Below are positions 47,201 to 59,157 of a DNA stretch of 64,000 nucleotides, piece after piece. The stretch comes from Streptomyces fodineus (GTDB taxonomy: Bacteria > Actinomycetota > Actinomycetes > Streptomycetales > Streptomycetaceae), in the NCBI RefSeq assembly GCF_001735805.1, contig NZ_CP017248.1, forward strand, positions 248,001-312,000, given 5' to 3'. The notes beneath the pieces are model-generated. The model was given only the letters and a program-made list of their open reading frames with translations. It searched no databases and had not been told where the DNA came from. The stretch's first letter is position 1. Every line of letters starts with the position of its first letter. A program made the position numbers and the translations under genes.

Positions 47201-48393
47201 CTACGCCACCGTGTGCGGCACCCAGACGGTGGCGTGGAACGGGCCGTTGGCAGTGGACGCGCCAGCAGGCGGAAGGGCTGCGCTGCCCGCGACGACGCCA
47301 TGGCAGTTGACCTGCGTCGCGGAGGAGTTGAGGCCGCCGAGGGAGGCCAGGTAGGTGAAGTCGCCGTCGTCGACGCGGGCGACGAAGGCGAAGGAGTTGG
47401 GGGCGAAGTTGTCACCGACCATGACGTTCCCGGCGATCTGCTTGACCTCGGTGACACCACGCCCTGAGCCGATCATGGCACTCGTGTGTGTCATGAGGTC
47501 GAACGACCTGGAGAGCAAGCTGTCGCTGCCGACCACAGTGCTCCCGCTGATCAGCTGGGCGGTCAGGAAGTGGGACCCCAGGTCCGTGCGGATGCCGGTG
47601 CGGAGGTCGTAGGCGTATCCGGTGAGGCCGTTGCCGGCCGTTCGAGACTGACCGACCACGGTTGAACCGCTGACGTCGTTGGCTGTGCTGGAGCTTCCGC
47701 CGAGGGTGCCGAGATCGGTCATCGTCCGGGTGCGCAGGCTGTACGCGAACCCGTGCTTTGTGGTGGCCGGCATGTTCGGCAGGGAGGAGCTGCCCACGAC
47801 GATCGCACCGCTGACGGCCGCCGCGGTGCTGTCGCCCGACGCCCCGGCGAGGCTGCCGAGATCGGTCATGGTCCGGGTGCGCAGGCTGTACGCGAACGCG
47901 TGGGTCACCACGTCGCCGGACAGCGACGACGTTCCCACCACGGTGTCACCGTTGAGGCCGGTGATGTTGGTGCTGCTGCCGCCGAGAGTGCCGATGTCGA
48001 TGAGCCGGCGGGTCCGGACGTTGTAGGCGAAGCCATGAGTCGGGCCGTCGGTGGAGAGGTCTGACTCCCCGACGACGTAGTCCCCCTCCACGCCGGTCGC
48101 GTGGCTGGAGCCCCCAGCGTGCCGAGATCGGTCATGGTGTGTCTGCGCAGGTCGTATGCGAAGGCGTGCTCGGCGGCGTCGCCGCTCGTCAGTGAGCTCC
48201 CGACGACCGTGTTGCCGTCGATGGCGGTGGCCTCGCTGCGGGTACCGCCCAGGGTGCCGAGGTCCTGCACGGTGTACTGCACGGACCCCGCCGCCGACTC
48301 GGCCGACGACGTGTCAGCCCCGTACGCCGGACCGGCGCCCACGGCGAGCAGACCCGCGCCCACCAGAATCCAGGCACGTAAACGTATGCGCAT
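47201..48393 (-). pseudogene. Secreted HAF-repeat protein, one-base frameshift
   Basis: From the ATG at 48393 the product starts with a Sec signal (MRIRLRAWILVGAGLLAVGA then GPAYGADTSS). Extracellular HAF-type repeats follow, each with the pattern D(L/I)GTLGG, a GxxVVG strand and HAFAYxLRTRTM. In a G-run at about 48114-48118 one G is missing, so the first frame ends as nonsense. The next frame continues HATGVEGDYVVGESDLSTDG and five or six more repeats to WVPHTVA at 47201. With the G restored it would be a propeller-like secreted protein of about 395 residues. A true mutation, a phase-variable tract or a base-calling error are all possible. Confidence 0.75.
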
Positions 48394-48889
48394 GATGCCC
48401 CCTGCAATGATCGATCGGGACGAGCACGGTTCGGCAGACCGCTGTGCCCTCCCCAGGCACGGGCCGACCGGATGTCGCACAGCCTTCACTTGTACATCAG
48501 TTCCGATCGGCCAGGCAGTGGGCGGTCGGCCACAAATAGGAGGTTCGTGACCTCGCCGTCAGGGAAGCTGCGCTCCTGAACGGAAAGTCCCAGCCGTTGG
48601 CGACGGGAAGGGCTTGTTGCCCTCCGTGCGTCTGGGCAGCGTCATCGGGCAGTCGGCCACCGCGTGACCTGGCGCCCGAGGGGCTTTGAGCCGGCGGACG
48701 AGGTCGCGTGGTGGGGACGAGCCGCATGTCCGGGCCGATCTCGGCCAGCGGACGGCACGCGCCGCCCCTGCGACTCCGCGCACCGCTTGCACAGGTAGAT
48801 ACGCGCCTCCGCCGTGGCGCTCGTCGAGGCGTACAGCGCAACCTCCCACGGTGGGGCAGCTCCGGTGGCGGGGGCCTGTTTTTGCCGCT

Positions 48890-49957: not shown

Positions 49958-51256
49958 GGTGTCCTTCTTCCGCCCGTGGTCCCGACCAAGCGCAGCCGCT
50001 CCCAACCAGGCCCCGAGACGCCGCGACACGATGGCGCGCAGTGTAGCGAGTTCGAAATGGCTCACGACCGCCCGTGCCCAGTGGCGGCGCGCAACGCGGC
50101 GGCGGCGCGCGATGCACATCGGAGCCTCACGGATGCGCGACACCTTCGCCCGCCGTAGTGGCCGTGCCTTGTCCTGCCGGCACTCGTGCTCGTGGCCCGG
50201 CCGCCATCGTGACCGCGCTGCTGCTCACCCATGGCGTCCCCGATGCCTGGTGGCCCCAGACCGGCCACGCCTTCCACTCGCCCCGGGGCACGGCCACACC
50301 CAACGACCCCTGCGACCTGGTCCTCGGCCCCGCCCGGGACTACTTGGCGGGACACGCCATGGCGGGCGACCGGGGACCTCGGCAGCCTGTCGCCCGCGCG
50401 GTGATCCCGGCGGATCGCTTCGAACGGGAGGGGATTTCCGGCGGTGGCGGATCCTGGGGCGGGACGCGGTCGTCTTCCCCGAGGTGGTGGCCGGGCGCAA
50501 GGGCGGCTCCACTTGTAGAGCCGAACGTGGCTCATACAGATGCCACAACCTCGAATCCACTTCAGACTCCGGGAAGTCGCGATCCACTTTTGTGAGCCGG
50601 AGATCTCGGTGAGCTGCAGGAGGTACCGCCCGTCCACCGGCGCCGGTACGGGGCGTCGCTGCCGATCAGCGCGCCTCGCGCCCGTGGCCAGCAAGGAACT
50701 GTCCCCCGCGGCCAACGCCACAGGAGACCGCCCGGCGCATCGGCGCACCACCTGCGACGCTCATCCCGGGTGCCCGGCACCTGACGATGATCTCCAGCCC
50801 TGAGGCGGTCGCGACGGCCGTGGACAGGCTCACGGCGGCATCGATCACGGCATCTCGGTAACTCCGCCGCTACGCCGGTGCGTACGTCAAGGGTCAGCTG
50901 TCCAGGCCACCTCATCAGTAGTGGCTGTGCTGGATCCATCGGTCACCGCCCCGGCCGGTGGGCCGCGGTCCGGGCGGATCTCTCCTCGTAGCGGTCATGC
51001 ACGGGAGCACCCTCGACCCCGACCTGCGACGCTGCCCGGTCGAGATCGCACGCCTCGCCCTGTAGTCTCCGGCGCCACCTTCGTCACCATGCCGGTATCG
51101 GCGGTCAGCCTGGGCTGCATCGACATGGTCAGTTCCACGCCGACCACGGCGGCGAGCGGCAGGAACGCCGGCCCCGTGCGTACCTGCTCGCAAACGCCGT
51201 TTCCTCGGCCCCCTCCGACCAGTACCCTGTTCGCCACTGTGCGTGAGGATCTGCCG
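49958..51256. other. About 1.3 kb with no firmly supported gene
   Basis: A plus-strand frame at about 50190-50400 reads AAIVTALLLTHGVPDAWWPQ then GHAFHSPRGTATPNDPCDLV and GPARDYLAGHAMAG. It looks like part of a real protein but has no start with ribosome site and no family. A minus-strand stretch at 50780-50880 (AAVSLSTAVATASGLEIIVR) is similar in quality. The rest is uninformative. Confidence 0.35.
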
Positions 51257-53002
51257 ATGCTACGCGGGGGAACAAGGCGGATGAGTGTCCGGGAATTGAA
51301 GCCTGAGGGCCGGCAGCCGGTGCGGGCCGAGGACGAGGACGAGCAGCGGCGGCTGTCGGTGTTCCACCTCGTCGGCCTGGCGGCTGGGGGCATGATCGGT
51401 TCCGGCTGGCTGCTGGGCGCGGACGACGCGTTCCGCCGGGCCGGTTCGGACGCCTACCTGGCCTGGGTGTTCGGCGGCCTGCTCATGCTGCTGATCGCCG
51501 CGGTCATGGTCGAATTGGGCACCGTCGCCCCCAAGACCGGCGGGCTGATATTCCTGCCGCTGCAGAGCAGCGGCGCGCTGGTGGCGACGGTGGTCGCGGC
51601 CGGCCTGTGGATCTTCTACGCGATCAACCTCTCCAGTGAGGCCGTCGCGATGACGAGGGGCCTGTCCTGGAAGGTCCACGGGCTCCTGGACTCCTCCCAG
51701 GCGCTCACCCTCACAGGCTGGGGCTACGCGCTGGTGTTCATGGCGGCGATCTCCGCGGTGAACCTGGTGGCCCCGCGGATCTTCTTCAGGATCAACTCCT
51801 GGCTGACGGTGGTGAAGGTCATCGTCCCTGTCCTGACCGTCGCGCTGCTGATCGCCGCCGGCTTCGACCACCCAAGTCCCCACGCGAGTGGCGGCGGCAC
51901 CGGAAAAGGCCCCGGCGCCGCCTTGGCAGCGGTCGTCGGCAGTGGCGTGATCTTCGCCTACGTCGGCTTCCAGGGACCGCTGGACTTCGCCGGGAACATC
52001 AAGCGGTGGGGACGGGGAATCGGCGAGGCGGCCCGGCTCCGAAGGGCGGTCTTCGGAACGATCGTCGGGGCGATGGTCCTGTACATATCGCTTCAGGTCG
52101 TCTTCACGAAGTATCAGGCGTCCTACTGGAGTCCGGCCGGCATCGAGCCGTCGCCCTATGCGCAGTTCGCCTTCGCCCTCTCCCTGTGGTGGCTCGGGTG
52201 GCTGCTCAGGATCGGCGCCGTGATCTCACCCATGGGCGCGGGACTCGTCTTCGCCCATGCGCTCACCCGCGAGGTGGCAGCGCTCAGCCGGGCCCATCTC
52301 ACGCACCGCGGGCTGCAAACCGCCCGCAAGGCCTCCCTGAAGCGGCGGTACGACGTGTACTGGCTGGTCCTGGTCGTCGACTTCTTCGTCGCGAGCGTCG
52401 CGTTGCTGGCGGTCGGCGGCAGCTGGAGCTCTCTCGTCGCGATCACCGGAGTCCTGACGCTGGTCGTCTACGCCGTCCCGGGCGTCGTCCTCGTGTCGCT
52501 CCGCGATCACCTGACCGGCTGGTCCCGCCTGCGGCGCGGCGCCCGCGAGGTCCTGGCGCGTACCGGTTTCGCGCTGATCGCGCTGATCCTCTACGGGGCG
52601 GGCTGGGCCCCCTTGTGGCGGGGCATGGCGACCCTCACGGTGGGCTGCGCCCTGCTGCTGTGCCTGCCGATCCTCGCCCGGTGGCTGCCCGCCTTCGGCC
52701 GGATGTACGACGCCAAGGTGCACGTGACACTGTTCCGGCACTGGCGCACCAGCTCCGCCGCCCAGGCCGGACTCTGGCTGATCGGTCATCTCGCGGTGCT
52801 GACGCTGCTGACACTGCTGGGCGATTCCTCGGTCAGAGTCCTCCCCAAGCTCCTCGGGGGCTTCCTGGCCGTCGCTGCGGCGCTCGCGGCCTTCGAGGGC
52901 CTGGTCGACGCGTCCAGACGCCACATGACCGAAGTGGCGCCCATGCTGCCGACCCCGGGCACCGGCCGCCCCGCCGCGGCCGCTAACGCAGCGAACGAAT
53001 GA
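51257..53002 (+). CDS. APC-superfamily amino-acid permease
   Basis: A 581-residue membrane protein from the ATG at 51257, with GAGGA seven bases upstream; the ATG at 51281 is also possible. About twelve membrane segments are visible. They begin VFHLVGLAAGGMIGSGWLLG, the TM1 glycine-rich substrate-binding segment of amino-acid/polyamine/organocation transporters. TM6-like VVGSGVIFAYVGFQGPLDFA follows, with charged loops LRRAVFG and LKRRYDVY. It imports or exchanges an amino acid or amine at the cytoplasmic membrane. Its 3' end overlaps the convergent 573-residue gene by 20 bases. Confidence 0.88.
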   Translation: MLRGGTRRMSVRELKPEGRQPVRAEDEDEQRRLSVFHLVGLAAGGMIGSGWLLGADDAFRRAGSDAYLAWVFGGLLMLLIAAVMVELGTVAPKTGGLIFLPLQSSGALVATVVAAGLWIFYAINLSSEAVAMTRGLSWKVHGLLDSSQALTLTGWGYALVFMAAISAVNLVAPRIFFRINSWLTVVKVIVPVLTVALLIAAGFDHPSPHASGGGTGKGPGAALAAVVGSGVIFAYVGFQGPLDFAGNIKRWGRGIGEAARLRRAVFGTIVGAMVLYISLQVVFTKYQASYWSPAGIEPSPYAQFAFALSLWWLGWLLRIGAVISPMGAGLVFAHALTREVAALSRAHLTHRGLQTARKASLKRRYDVYWLVLVVDFFVASVALLAVGGSWSSLVAITGVLTLVVYAVPGVVLVSLRDHLTGWSRLRRGAREVLARTGFALIALILYGAGWAPLWRGMATLTVGCALLLCLPILARWLPAFGRMYDAKVHVTLFRHWRTSSAAQAGLWLIGHLAVLTLLTLLGDSSVRVLPKLLGGFLAVAAALAAFEGLVDASRRHMTEVAPMLPTPGTGRPAAAANAANE

Positions 53003-54704
53003 CCTCCGTGGCCTCCGCCTCGTATCCCCTGCCGCGCAGCTCCTCGACCGCCTCCTCCCGGCGGTGCGTGTCGGACCACCGGCCCACCGTGGCACGGAGC
53101 AGGAAATGCCTGTCCTCTTCCGTCATCGTGCTGGCGCGCAGCCGGTCGACGACCAACGCCACGCCTTGAGGGGTGACACGCTGCTCGTTCTCCAGGCATC
53201 GTTCGAGCAGGTCCCAGCCATCGCGGGGCAGCTCTGCGCCGTACAGGCAGGCGGCGATCTCGGCGATGACCGCACCCGAACCCCGGGGCACCGCGACGGG
53301 GTCGGAGGGGTCCGCCAATTCCTTGCAGGCCAGATCGACGGCCTCGGCGCGGCCGTGGCTCCGCAGCCCTCTGACATACTCGACGAAAAGCCCGGCGTCG
53401 GCGCCCTGTTCGAGGACGCGCGCGGCCAGTTTCTGAGCGATCGTCTGCGCCACACGGTTGCGGTCCCTCGGCCGCTCGATCCTGACCAGCAGACCGGCCA
53501 TATCGGTTCCCGAGCGGTCATCAGTGTGCGCCGCGGCGGCGATACGCAGCAGCCTCCTGCATTCCGGCTGCGCGTTGAAATTGCCCAGTACCGTGTCCAG
53601 GTAGTCGAGTTCCACCGGTGAGCGGGGCCCGGCCGCTCTCGCCGTCCCCCTGGCCACGATGTCGGCGAGCAGGTCCTTGGTCGTCCTGGTGAGCGCCTCT
53701 GAGCGGTGCCAGGCGATGACGATCTCCGCCAGGTGTTCCACGTTGTCGCGCGAGGCGGCGTGCTCGCGGATCAGCGCGCACTTGTCGGAGGATCCCTGTC
53801 TGGCCAACTGGCCGCAGATTTCTGCGATGTCATGCTGGGACAGCCGTTTGCCGACATGCTCCACGAGCGTGTCCGGGCTGTCGGTCCGGGTAGCGATCAG
53901 ATGGGCGACGATCCGTCTTGTCTCGGGTACGTGATCCGGAATCCGCAACTGTGCGTCGACCCACGCTTCCAGGATCCGCTCGGAGGGACTGAGCTGGTGG
54001 AGCGCGCCGGCAAGATCCTGGAACTCCCTGGGAATCGTGTACGAGGCCTGCGACGGCACGTGCACGTGCTCGGTGATCGCGACGAGGGTCTGACGGAGGA
54101 GCTCGGCGGCCTCTTCCTCGCACTTCTCATCACGCAGCGCGATGTAGAGGAGGGCCTTGTCGAGATTGGTCCGCCCCGAACTCGGTGTGGTGAACACGCG
54201 CAGCGTCTTGTCCACCAGCTCGGTCTTTCCAGCGCCACGGCACTCCCGGACGAAGACGGCAACGTCGAGCACCGTCCGCTGGCAAGCGATGTCATGGATG
54301 ACGCCATCTGTCAGCCGTGGGTACCGGCCCTCACTCGTACGCTCCGCATCCCATTGCCGGATGGCGAGTTCCGCGGCGTGAATGATGTTCCGGCTCAGCG
54401 CCGCCGTGGCCACCATGTTGACGGCGTCCCGGTAGTCGAAACTCACGGCGCATTCGATGAGCCGGTCGATGGTGCTGAGCATGGCGAACGCGTGCAGGGC
54501 CCTGATCGCATTGGCGGGCCGGGGCCTCTCACTGCTCTCGGTGACGGGCTGCTCGCCCTCCCGCATGGCCTGCATGCGCTCCTTGAAGGCGGCGACCGAG
54601 CACTTGGTCACCCATTCATAGCCGAAGCTCCACGACTCCGTCGCGCCGTCGCCCTCGGAACGTCTGGCCACGTCGGAACCCGAGGCCTTCTGGCCCTCCG
54701 TCAT
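52983..54704 (-). CDS. 573-aa helical-repeat protein of the caspase cassette, unknown
   Basis: The ATG at 54704-54702 overlaps the TGA of the upstream caspase gene (ATGA), so translation is coupled. The protein is almost entirely amphipathic helices, for example IDRLIECAVSFDYRDAVNMV, ALLYIALRDEKCEEEAAELL, KCALIREHAASRDNVEHLAE and DGWDLLERCLENEQRVTPQG. The lengths resemble TPR/HEAT-like or pentatricopeptide-like hairpins. No catalytic motif, membrane segment or signal peptide is seen. In a protease cassette it could be the substrate, scaffold, sensor or executioner. No family is recognised. Its 3' end overlaps the APC permease gene. Confidence 0.8.
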   Translation of the reverse strand: MTEGQKASGSDVARRSEGDGATESWSFGYEWVTKCSVAAFKERMQAMREGEQPVTESSERPRPANAIRALHAFAMLSTIDRLIECAVSFDYRDAVNMVATAALSRNIIHAAELAIRQWDAERTSEGRYPRLTDGVIHDIACQRTVLDVAVFVRECRGAGKTELVDKTLRVFTTPSSGRTNLDKALLYIALRDEKCEEEAAELLRQTLVAITEHVHVPSQASYTIPREFQDLAGALHQLSPSERILEAWVDAQLRIPDHVPETRRIVAHLIATRTDSPDTLVEHVGKRLSQHDIAEICGQLARQGSSDKCALIREHAASRDNVEHLAEIVIAWHRSEALTRTTKDLLADIVARGTARAAGPRSPVELDYLDTVLGNFNAQPECRRLLRIAAAAHTDDRSGTDMAGLLVRIERPRDRNRVAQTIAQKLAARVLEQGADAGLFVEYVRGLRSHGRAEAVDLACKELADPSDPVAVPRGSGAVIAEIAACLYGAELPRDGWDLLERCLENEQRVTPQGVALVVDRLRASTMTEEDRHFLLRATVGRWSDTHRREEAVEELRGRGYEAEATEVIRSLR

Positions 54705-55729
54705 ACGCGCAGTGCCTTCTCCACCTGGTTCCAGTAGCGGGCGAAGGCGTGGGGCGAGTCGAACGCCTGGTTGGCCCGGACGTCGATGTGCCGCGCGAGA
54801 TGCCGGCTGGCCTCATCCGGCCTGGAGCTGAGCAGAGCGACCACGTCGCCGGTCTTTCGCTCGTCCTTCAGCAGTTCATCGAGGCGGGAGTCCCGGTCCA
54901 TCATCAACGTCTTGACCCAGTCCCCAGGCTCGACCGGGAGTTGCGGGACCGGGTCGCGCTTCTTGAGCTCCATCTGGTTGGTGAAGAGCGGGGTGCCGTC
55001 ACGGGCGTCGTTCAGCGACATCCTCGGTACCTGGTGCTGGGCACCTGTGCAGTTCTCCATCTCCGCCTTCACCGCCTCCCGCAGGAGGCCGATGGTGAGC
55101 TGGTGGTTGTGGTCCTTCGTGCCGTCCTGCAGTACGTGCAGCAGATGCCCGCTGAACGGTGTGCACTTCGAGAGATCCCCGGGCAGAGCTGAGCAACCGT
55201 CAGCGGAAGCGAAATTGGCATTCTTGACGGCCGTGAACACACAGGTGCCCTCGTCCAGCGCGCCCAGGACTCCTGGAAGGACGGGCTCCTCCCCGAGCTG
55301 AGGCAGCAGGTTCGAGTAGCAGCAGTCGGCGATCAGGACCTTCAGCCTTGCCCTGGCCTTGCGCATGACGCGGTAGACGTACCAACTGGAGAGCCAGGTC
55401 CATGGCTTGTCCCGGTAGGACGAGCCCACGGAGAAGTGGACCTGCGCGCCGGGAACGTCACTCCAGTACTGGCCGTGGCCGACATACACCACCAGGAGGA
55501 TGTCGTCGGGCCCCGTCTCGTCCGCGGCCGCCTGCAACGCCCTCATCACGCCGTCGGCCGTCTGGACCTCGTCCTCGGTCAGAACCCGGCAGCAGTCGGT
55601 ACCCCACATCTCGTCGCCCGCGAGAACCTCGCCGTACATCCGCGCGCTCGCACCGATCGGCGGATGGCCGTCCATCCCCGAATCGACGGCGTACCTCGCC
55701 GGTCCGATCACCACCGCACGCGATGCCAT
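54701..55729 (-). CDS. Caspase-like cysteine protease (peptidase C14)
   Basis: A 342-residue protein from the ATG at 55729, one base after the stop of the 110-residue gene. It opens ASRAVVIGPARYAVDSGMDG, the first strand of the caspase-hemoglobinase fold. The catalytic His is His85 in VVYVGHGQYW, and the catalytic Cys is Cys137 in VLIADCCYSNL. Conserved secondary blocks are CCRVLTEDEVQTADGVMRAL and LDEGTCVFTAVKNANFASAD. After about residue 230 comes a distinct C-terminal region (EPGDWVKTLMMDRDSRLDEL, SPHAFARYWNQVEKALRV) that could be an adaptor or death-type domain. It is likely a signal-activated protease of a conflict system. Confidence 0.88.
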   Translation of the reverse strand: MASRAVVIGPARYAVDSGMDGHPPIGASARMYGEVLAGDEMWGTDCCRVLTEDEVQTADGVMRALQAAADETGPDDILLVVYVGHGQYWSDVPGAQVHFSVGSSYRDKPWTWLSSWYVYRVMRKARARLKVLIADCCYSNLLPQLGEEPVLPGVLGALDEGTCVFTAVKNANFASADGCSALPGDLSKCTPFSGHLLHVLQDGTKDHNHQLTIGLLREAVKAEMENCTGAQHQVPRMSLNDARDGTPLFTNQMELKKRDPVPQLPVEPGDWVKTLMMDRDSRLDELLKDERKTGDVVALLSSRPDEASRHLARHIDVRANQAFDSPHAFARYWNQVEKALRV

Positions 55730-55730
55730 C

Positions 55731-56063
55731 TCAGCCGTCCAGCCCTTCCGTCGTCGGCTCCGCTGCCAAGTCGGGCACCGACTGGGTGGCGACCAGAGTC
55801 TCGGGCGGATCCAGCCGCTCACCGCGCCAGTGCTCGACGACCCGCTTCACGGCGTCCACCGCGGCGGACACGGTCATCTCGGTCGCCTTGCCGACCGCGG
55901 CCACGAGGACGATCTCGACGATGCCGCCGGTCAGTACCTTGCCCTCGTCGACGGCCGACGAACGCCACGACAGACCGGTCTCCGCCTCCAGTTCGTCGAG
56001 CATCCGGTCCGTCTCGTCCAGACCGGTCGGCCCCTTGACGGTCACCGAGATCCTCGTAGCCAT
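55731..56063 (-). CDS. 110-aa adaptor-like protein (EACC1-like), first gene of caspase cassette
   Basis: A small alpha/beta protein: a first strand RISVTVKGPT, an acidic helix DETDRMLDELEAETG, a hairpin KVLTGGIVEIVLVAAVGKAT and a long helix MTVSAAVDAVKRVVEHWRGE. The pattern strand-helix-strand, then TGGIVEIVLV and a terminal helix, resembles the effector-associated constant component (EACC1). EACC1 is encoded next to caspases and trypsin-like proteases in actinobacterial conflict systems. That similarity was judged by eye, not by search. The gene stops one base before the caspase start. It would act as the sensor/adaptor subunit. Confidence 0.65.
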   Translation of the reverse strand: MATRISVTVKGPTGLDETDRMLDELEAETGLSWRSSAVDEGKVLTGGIVEIVLVAAVGKATEMTVSAAVDAVKRVVEHWRGERLDPPETLVATQSVPDLAAEPTTEGLDG

Positions 56064-56278
56064 GCCAACGCCCCCGCCCCGAGCTCAGGTCGACAACCAG
56101 GACGCCGAACCCGGTTCCGCAGTTCCCGTGTCAGCGCCCATACCAGCGTACTCACCAGAGCAAGCCACCCCGCTCCGATCAGCCTGCCCCAGCCCCGGCC
56201 CGCGCAGGGGCTGTCCGAACGAGCTGGTTTCGCATGCAAGCGGGCCGCCCGGTTCGGAACCCGGACCGCCCGCTGCAA
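56042..56278 (-). CDS. Possible small membrane protein upstream of caspase cassette
   Basis: A 78-residue frame with one probable membrane helix (GRLIGAGWLALVSTLVWALT) followed by a positively charged tail (RELRNRVRRPG). It overlaps the start of the 110-residue adaptor gene by 22 bases in the same direction. If real, it would be the first gene of the cassette and might tether it to the membrane. No clear ribosome site was found, and in GC-rich DNA a chance frame is possible. Confidence 0.3.
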   Translation of the reverse strand: MQRAVRVPNRAARLHAKPARSDSPCAGRGWGRLIGAGWLALVSTLVWALTRELRNRVRRPGCRPELGAGALAWLRGSR

Positions 56279-57982: not shown

Positions 57983-58164
57983 GCCGTCCCTGAGCGACCT
58001 GGCCCGTCGGTGTTCGGTCGCCGTCGGCAGCCGACGAACGCACATGCCTTCGCATCCGCACACCAGGTCAGGCATACCGTGCCGGAGCACGCCGCCCCCC
58101 CCAGGCCCAAGCCTGCGTGGACGGCGGTCCCATTCTTTTCGACTCCCAGTCCGACAAGGCAACC

Positions 58165-59157
58165 ATGAACACTCGCACCCCCAGACCCGCTCTCGCCGCG
58201 CTTCTGCCACTCACCGCCACCGCCATGCTGGTCGCGAACGGAGAGCCGGCCAACGCCGCTACGGCGACGTCGACGTGGCCCGCGCACTTCGCGGCCCCCT
58301 ACCTCCAGATCGGCCCCGGCACCGCCGGTGACATGGCCGACGACATGGCCGCCACCGGTCTGAAGCACTACACGCTGGCATTCCTCATCCCTGAGGATGG
58401 CTGCACGGCCAAATGGGAATTCAACGGTGACCCGGTCGGCGCGTTCACTTCGGAAATCAACGCGCTCAAGGCCAACAGCGGAGACGTCATCATCTCCTTC
58501 GGCGGAGCCGCCGGCGGCGAACTCGCCCAGACCTGCACCTCCGTCTCCGACCTGACCGCCGCCTACGCCAACATCGTCAACACCTACGGCGTCACCCGGC
58601 TCGACTTCGACATCGAAGGCGCGACCCTCGACGACACCGCCGCCAACACCCGCCGCAACCAGGCACTCGCCGCGCTTCAGGCGCAAAACCCCTCGGTCCA
58701 GGTGGACTACACGCTCGCGGTCGCCCCCGACGGCCTGCCCTCCGCACAGACCGGACTCCTCCAGGACGCCAAGGACAACGGGGTCGACGTCAGCACCGTC
58801 AACCTCATGACCATGGACTTCGGCGACGGACACAACGCGCTCGCCGACGCCGAATCGGCCGCACAGGCAACCGCCCGGCAACTCGCCCATATCTACGGCG
58901 TTTCCCACTCACAGGCGTACCAGATGATGGGCCTGACGCCGATCGCCGGCAAGAACGACGACGACGAAGTCTTCTCCCAGTCCGACGCGGCCACGCTGGA
59001 GAACTTCGCCGCCTCCAACGGAGTCCAGGAACTGTCCTTCTGGGAAGTCGACGGATACGACAAGCCCACCGGCTACGCGTACTCCAACACCTTCAACCAG
59101 CTCAGCACCACCCAGGCACGCAACGCGAGCGCACGGACACCACGCGCAGCACACTGA
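58165..59157 (+). CDS. Secreted GH18 chitinase-like enzyme
   Basis: A 330-residue protein from the ATG at 58165, with AAGG upstream. A signal peptide (NTRTPRPALAALLPLTATAM then LVANGEPANA) leads to a GH18 barrel: YTLAFLIPEDGCTAKWEF, GDVIISFGGAAGGELAQTCT, VTRLDFDIEGATLDD and TVNLMTMDFGDGH. The catalytic stretch is Asp147, Asp149 and Glu151. The first Asp of the usual DxxDxDxE motif is Thr144. It should cleave beta-1,4-linked N-acetylglucosamine polymers outside the cell. No chitin-binding module is attached, so the neighbouring secreted protein might assist binding. Confidence 0.88.
   Translation: MNTRTPRPALAALLPLTATAMLVANGEPANAATATSTWPAHFAAPYLQIGPGTAGDMADDMAATGLKHYTLAFLIPEDGCTAKWEFNGDPVGAFTSEINALKANSGDVIISFGGAAGGELAQTCTSVSDLTAAYANIVNTYGVTRLDFDIEGATLDDTAANTRRNQALAALQAQNPSVQVDYTLAVAPDGLPSAQTGLLQDAKDNGVDVSTVNLMTMDFGDGHNALADAESAAQATARQLAHIYGVSHSQAYQMMGLTPIAGKNDDDEVFSQSDAATLENFAASNGVQELSFWEVDGYDKPTGYAYSNTFNQLSTTQARNASARTPRAAH

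Follow-up and report, generated by a model that had tools for sequence, protein, structure and literature searches.

A caspase gene cassette of Streptomyces fodineus includes a predicted alpha-solenoid and a convergent APC-family permease

Introduction

Caspases are widespread in bacteria, and the trigger that activates them is mostly unknown. A predicted caspase gene in the 9.7-Mb single-contig genome of Streptomyces fodineus (NCBI RefSeq assembly GCF_001735805.1, contig NZ_CP017248.1) raises the question of which neighbouring genes belong with it and what these could contribute to its action. The gene lies within 248-312 kb of the genome, and this whole stretch of 64,000 nucleotides is called the window here; positions are those of the window. 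An earlier note on this DNA had described three tightly coupled minus-strand genes, for a 110-aa protein, a caspase-fold protease and a 573-aa helical protein, as a defence or cell-death module of a perhaps undescribed composition. Here, four genes are found to occur as one block, the fourth being a plus-strand permease gene, and in Frankia the solenoid and the permease are found together with a TIR domain in place of the caspase.

Two-gene EACC1-caspase conflict systems with effectors fused behind the caspase have been published as System 4 (Kaur et al., 2020; PMC7159879), and that paper proposes EACC1-caspase pairs as membrane-associated conflict systems, describes EACC1 with one conserved transmembrane (TM) helix bearing a small-residue patch, and reports that EACC1 systems track a multicellular habit (650 of 671 organisms, its Table 1). 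The main text of the same paper nowhere uses the word "permease". Systems of EACC2-caspase and TRADD-N were described in 2021 (PMC8195603).

Results

Four genes occur as one block

The three minus-strand open reading frames (ORFs) of the earlier note were found exactly where it had placed them (Table 1), with a single base (55730) between the genes for the EACC1-like protein P0003 and the caspase P0001, and an ATGA overlap between the latter and the gene for the predicted solenoid P0002. A pattern-based scan with the solenoid alignment alone, run on a genome set that represents each GTDB species once, yielded 35 loci, and in 34 of these the caspase and EACC1-like genes lay immediately 5' of the solenoid gene in the same order, the exception being a fragment (L050). 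With start codons chosen by script, the gap between the EACC1-like and caspase genes was 1-10 bases in 34 of 34 loci and the caspase and solenoid genes overlapped by 4 bases in 31 of 34, the other spacings being 9 (L027), 95 (L036) and 104 bases (L040). The solenoid was encoded separately from the caspase in all 34. An arrangement kept in this way is no product of chance. The survey thus found the three genes strictly conserved together, and not the lack of co-occurrence on which their grouping would have foundered.

That grouping was nevertheless incomplete, as the note had overlooked a fourth, plus-strand gene. It emerged from clustering the script-predicted neighbour genes of the 34 loci and encodes an APC-family permease, which is 42-97% identical to that of the window and stands tail-to-tail with the solenoid gene in all 32 loci with enough sequence (the contigs of L046 and L047 end before its position). 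In the window the 3' ends of the two genes overlap by 20 bases. Carriers belong to Streptomyces, Kitasatospora, Streptacidiphilus, Mangrovactinospora, Actinospica and one Nocardiopsaceae bin, and the cassette was found in Actinomycetes only.

In a search of 295 congeneric genomes, which scored about 4, 7 and 4 best-looking candidates per genome for solenoid, caspase and permease and did not include EACC1, the solenoid was present in 12 genomes, down to 44% identity, with no further match at E<=0.001. Exactly the same 12 genomes carried caspases at least 52% identical to that of the window (next best 30%) and permeases at least 50% identical (next best 34%), although some caspase match was obtained in 179 and some APC match in 286 of the 295. 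Solenoid and permease genes lay on one contig in 11 of the 12 genomes, always convergent, and on two contigs in the remaining one (G139). The 12-genome and 35-locus counts overlap, several genomes looking like the same records.

When window positions 40001-64000 were compared by blastn (E<=1e-10) with 8 of the 35 loci, homology ran from 51135-51322 to 56065-56204, which corresponds to the four genes. The flanks were unmatched in those 8 loci even where the block was 93-95% identical, save for a short match (50709-50888; 171-180 bases) in L017 and L018. The distance matrices of the four proteins across 32 loci were correlated with r 0.90-0.97, and 0 of 999 permutations reached values as high. 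The upstream flank was also used to look for an empty site; its distribution across the genus was patchy and no site of this kind was cleanly defined, and in a genome with a 95%-identical cassette (G146) matching flank pieces were on contigs other than that of the cassette.

A TIR domain replaces the caspase in Frankia

A class-wide solenoid search of 394 genomes gave six matches, two in the genus of the window, three in Frankia and a weak one (G524; 56 residues, E 1e-4), which was set aside as probably spurious. The genus was taken as Frankia from a protein search in which two of three close relatives of one TIR-solenoid were so named. All three Frankia solenoids lie in large open frames and carry a fused TIR_2 domain at the N terminus (33.6, 36.8 and 40.0 bits); together with the metagenome protein P0082, four proteins scored above the PF13676 (TIR_2) cut-off of 28 (33.6-40.3 bits). 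The Frankia proteins (P0085-P0087) have an extra region of about 200 residues between TIR and solenoid, which has no Pfam match.

Within 10-17 kb around the three Frankia solenoids, tblastn (E<=0.01) with the EACC1-like protein and the caspase of the window detected nothing. The permease was convergent with the TIR-solenoid in two of the genomes, and in the third (G554), where the solenoid is close to the end of its contig, a 46%-identical permease is at the end of another. Matches to a TIR-solenoid query (E<=0.001) occurred in 12 of 13 Frankia genomes, 9 of them in the TIR part only, and the full TIR-solenoid and a close permease were present in the same 3 of 13. In a permease tree that took 18 of 33 available cassette rows, the TIR-linked permeases grouped with these 18 cassette permeases as against 18 Streptomyces paralogues (support 100/100). 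P0082 has its place within the caspase-linked solenoids, and the hypothesis of one TIR clade was rejected (approximately unbiased test, p-AU 3.7e-5); most simply, TIR would have joined the solenoid twice.

As solenoid and permease stay together through the change between caspase and TIR, they appear as a constant pair of which the caspase or TIR is the exchangeable end. The solenoid, kept with the permease while TIR replaces caspase and adaptor, looks like a constant sensor or scaffold, and is unlikely to be merely the substrate, inhibitor or executioner that the earlier note had supposed.

The cassette permease has a family-specific loop

Permease P0084 matches PF13520 (E 4.8e-24; 85.5 bits, cut-off 27) and has 14 hydrophobic peaks, and the solved structures nearest to it by sequence are amino-acid transporters (CAT1, xCT, LAT1/2). 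The motif GSGW in TM1 is kept, as in paralogues. After TM6, 17 of 18 paralogues have GE(A/T)RNP and the other one GETRTP, whereas cassette permeases have GN/GD/GS-x-K/R instead. Residues 329-346 (TREVAALSRAHLTHRGLQ) form the best-conserved 18-residue stretch of the protein, in which 17 of 18 columns reach an identity of 90% or more across 18 caspase-linked rows; such columns make up 21% of the whole permease and, in the 18 paralogues, 4 of the 18 columns of the same segment. The surrounding loop (316-361) follows TM8 and contains 8 Lys and Arg as compared to 2 Asp and Glu residues; from this position in the hydropathy profile and this charge balance it is probably cytosolic. The two TIR-linked permeases carry a different loop (LPSEIAELSKL..LTYRRLG). 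The segment 329-346 may serve as a docking surface or as a protease site. The permease matches of L028 and L040 came in two tblastn pieces, perhaps through frameshifts or sequence errors.

Solenoid, caspase and EACC1-like protein

The AlphaFold2 model of P0002 (36 rows; predicted local distance difference test, pLDDT, 88.4; predicted template modelling score, pTM, 0.80) contains 33 helices and no strands, and the protein is predicted to be an alpha-solenoid. Its matches in the PDB were generic ones. A database of 5.8 billion proteins contained 80 homologues (about 8,000 candidates scored), and a profile search of the same depth (about 8,000 candidates) returned the same 80 proteins and nothing more distant. 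All homologues with an organism name were from Actinomycetes, and 79 of 80 had no precomputed Pfam domain, the remaining one being the TIR fusion P0082. The statement in the earlier note that the helical protein matches no family has held, as Pfam, NCBIfam and PADLOC gave nothing above threshold; a ZW10_C2 match (E 0.0072) in one of 36 solenoids was considered to be at chance level. Longer solenoids of 626-656 aa occur in L044, L045 and L048. The fragment at L050:8001-8343 is an isolated piece of a solenoid gene in a locus where caspase, EACC1 and permease were unmatched, and is probably a decayed copy.

P0001 begins with a caspase-superfamily peptidase carrying a His/Cys dyad, and a caspase fold is predicted for it, as the earlier note had proposed. 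Likewise, the intact His85 and Cys137 of that note are present, and both are invariant across an alignment of the window with 21 of the 34 loci (22 rows). The protein ends in a helical C-terminal domain of about 75 aa and has no fused variable effector (342 aa in all). The closest structural match of the model is a metacaspase. Although prolegumains occupied the top Foldseek ranks, the root-mean-square deviation was near 20 over the full length and a legumain-like prodomain is not claimed; nor was an hhalign probability of 8% taken as support for common ancestry of the C-terminal domain and the solenoid. Pfam searches with P0001, P0002 and P0003 gave nothing above threshold, and matches to ATP-gua_Ptrans (E 0.21) and NACHT (E 0.16) were dismissed as chance. 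Three further caspase-domain open frames of 924-1562 aa are present in the same genome.

The 110-aa protein had been taken for an EACC-type adaptor. P0003 itself has no match to PF19953 (EACC1), and 4 of 22 orthologues match it at E<=0.1, the best (8.9e-5; 22.9 bits) being below the cut-off of 23.6. An hhalign profile-profile comparison between 35 EACC1-like orthologues and canonical EACC1 stretches (23 of the 25 inspected) gave P 2.7e-4 and a probability of 41%, collinear over 82 columns, whereas the best P among 20 column-shuffled controls was 0.055. The family of P0003 is therefore likely to be a divergent EACC1, to judge from these profiles. The best 19-residue hydropathy of P0003 is 1.74, with Glu and Lys inside the stretch, as compared to 2.21 and 1.56 for two canonical EACC1 proteins. 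A Gly-rich stretch is seen in rows such as L031-L035, and long Pro-Gly-Ala tails (e.g. PGAPTVPG) in L045-L048. Two canonical EACC1 loci are located elsewhere in the genome of the window, and at L052, by eye, an EACC1 is followed by a caspase-like frame that continues into a region resembling a protein kinase.

The coordinates of the cassette are collected in Table 1; the permease start codon was inferred, its ORF being open from 50921. Elsewhere in the window, a predicted secreted GH18 chitinase-like protein (plus strand, 58117-59157) and a repeat-rich, HAF-repeat-like protein of the DLGTLGG...VVGSS type (minus strand, 47201-48489) were recognised by eye.

Table 1. Cassette features and their positions in the window.
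Feature	Position	Strand	Remarks
EACC1-like gene P0003, 110 aa	55731..56063	-	ORF; first gene of the caspase operon
Predicted caspase-fold protease P0001, 342 aa	54701..55729	-	His85 codon 55475-55477, Cys137 codon 55319-55321
Predicted alpha-solenoid P0002, 573 aa	52983..54704	-	ATGA overlap with the caspase gene
APC-family permease P0084, 573 aa	51281..53002	+	PF13520; convergent with the operon
Permease residues 329-346 (TREVAALSRAHLTHRGLQ)	52265..52318	+	Predicted cytosolic loop, TM8-TM9
Homologous block of four genes	51222..56065		blastn between species; flanks without match

Discussion

With permease and solenoid constant and the death domain changing, the constant pair likely senses and transmits a signal and the EACC1-caspase or TIR executes. 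The four-gene block may on these grounds be a membrane-coupled cell-suicide switch in which permease and solenoid sense and the caspase damages, a reading to which we give about an even chance. From the anatomy, the co-occurrence, the exchange and the predicted folds, we infer the sensing, docking, activation, cleavage and killing that such a switch, of anti-phage or developmental purpose, would involve. The permease would sit in the membrane and offer its conserved cytosolic loop to the solenoid; phage, an attack on the envelope, or a substrate that is absent or foreign would perturb it, and the solenoid would relay this signal. The EACC1-like protein would hold or prime the caspase, which, once released, would cleave cell proteins and halt the cell. 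TIR domains have NADase activity, and in the TIR version the same outcome could be reached through destruction of NAD+. Transcription from the opposite strand would allow permease production to be independent of the killing operon.

Several points weigh against this switch. We know of no activity, interaction or phenotype for any cassette member, and a permease with the retained TM1 motif could, by its sequence, be a plain transporter. The correlated distances would fit joint travel and, equally, plain shared descent; besides the four genes no neighbour cluster exceeded 5 of 34 loci, and the solenoid was unmatched in 72,556 plasmid and 50,697 phage records. In PADLOC-DB 2023 a weak generic caspase model was the sole match (E 0.0013), the other four proteins having none at E<=0.01. 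The EACC1-like protein of the window falls outside the Pfam EACC1 model, and since Glu and Lys lie within its hydrophobic stretch a membrane helix is doubtful. The TIR version is known from three genomes of Frankia and from a single metagenome protein (P0082) whose neighbourhood was unseen, very distant caspases or EACC1 proteins in Frankia could have escaped queries that were the window's own, and the permease tree drew long-branch warnings and included no Frankia paralogues.

The same loop could be read the other way round, with the permease as target or effector of the caspase and not as sensor, a cut in its cytosolic, arginine-rich loop, for instance at LTHR-GLQ behind THR, making a leak or shutting the transporter. 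Metacaspases cut after Arg or Lys, and the caspase model best matches a metacaspase; the segment is best conserved in the caspase-linked rows and not in the paralogues, and the TIR-linked permeases have a different loop. A docking site would, however, give the same conservation, and the permease persists in Frankia, where the search detected no caspase around the solenoid; being a cleavage target can therefore not be its whole role, and we regard this reading as unlikely. We would likewise not expect, while keeping it in view, that the module serves development and not defence against phage, as a death switch by which mycelial bacteria respond to nutrients and in which the permease acts as amino-acid transceptor. 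The relatedness of the permease to amino-acid transporters, the confinement of the cassette to Actinomycetes and the multicellular habit of carriers of published EACC1 systems (PMC7159879) fit such a switch, whereas presence in 12 of 295 congeneric genomes with varying flanks is not what a core gene of development would show. A swap for TIR, too, is typical of conflict systems.

The compact block without flank homology, its patchy distribution and its fourth gene on the opposite strand would suit an addiction-like selfish unit, in which the caspase operon is a poison restrained by the permease or the EACC1-like protein and no outside trigger is needed; yet no carrier was found among the plasmid and phage records, and a 573-aa solenoid in every complete locus exceeds the needs of an antidote, which makes this quite improbable. 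A permease that is just a passenger, transporting some substrate next to a caspase system in which it plays no role, is very improbable indeed. Its convergent orientation and its intact APC core motif in TM1 would agree with that, but it accompanies the solenoid without exception (12 of 12 genomes in one set, 3 of 3 in the other), is kept through the exchange of caspase and TIR, and lacks close relatives in the remainder of the 295 and the 13 genomes that were searched.

Compared with known systems, the cassette resembles EACC1-caspase System 4 (PMC7159879) in its small 5' EACC1-like gene followed directly by an N-terminal caspase, its actinobacterial host and a caspase that matches the same NCBIfam subfamily model. 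It differs from the two-gene system in that the caspase ends after a short helical domain with no fused variable effector, and in its separate solenoid gene, convergent APC permease and TIR counterpart. With the EACC2-caspase/TRADD-N systems (PMC8195603) it has in common a constant caspase module, an alpha+beta component and exchangeable partners, although in the accessible description EACC2 is fused to the caspase and there is no solenoid-permease pair. The permease has the PF13520 match, TM1 motif and hydrophobic peaks of APC amino-acid transporters such as CAT1, xCT and LAT1/2 and departs from them in its replaced post-TM6 motif and family-specific loop. TIR domains are death effectors of prokaryotic immunity, and the Frankia relatives resemble these in bearing an N-terminal TIR_2 on a repeat scaffold; unlike them, the scaffold is of this solenoid family and the partner gene encodes an APC permease. 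In the membrane-sensor anti-phage system Kiwa, a membrane protein is thought to sense attack and signal to a cytosolic effector. The likeness to Kiwa is one of description, and the sensor here would be a protein of a transporter family.

In the literature searched, mostly without subscription papers and without bioRxiv, no paper combining the parts of the cassette was found, nor one on caspase, amino acid permease and conflict system together, nor one on amino acid permease, TIR domain and anti-phage defense. EACC1-caspase pairs are already published; the solenoid-permease core was absent from the literature searched and may prove a system of its own. More tentatively, as a possibility that falls short of probable, this core could belong to a transporter-guarding suicide system in which a permease-solenoid membrane sensor plugs into unrelated executioners and the loop acts as a docking or cleavage switch.

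For bacterial caspases, comparative genomics here supplies a candidate sensor pair consisting of a transporter-family protein and a solenoid, and the wiring of the same pair to TIR is a natural experiment that makes the roles of sensor and executioner separable. If this is true, a transporter would be the tripwire of bacterial programmed cell death, with executioners interchangeable as in animal and plant immunity.

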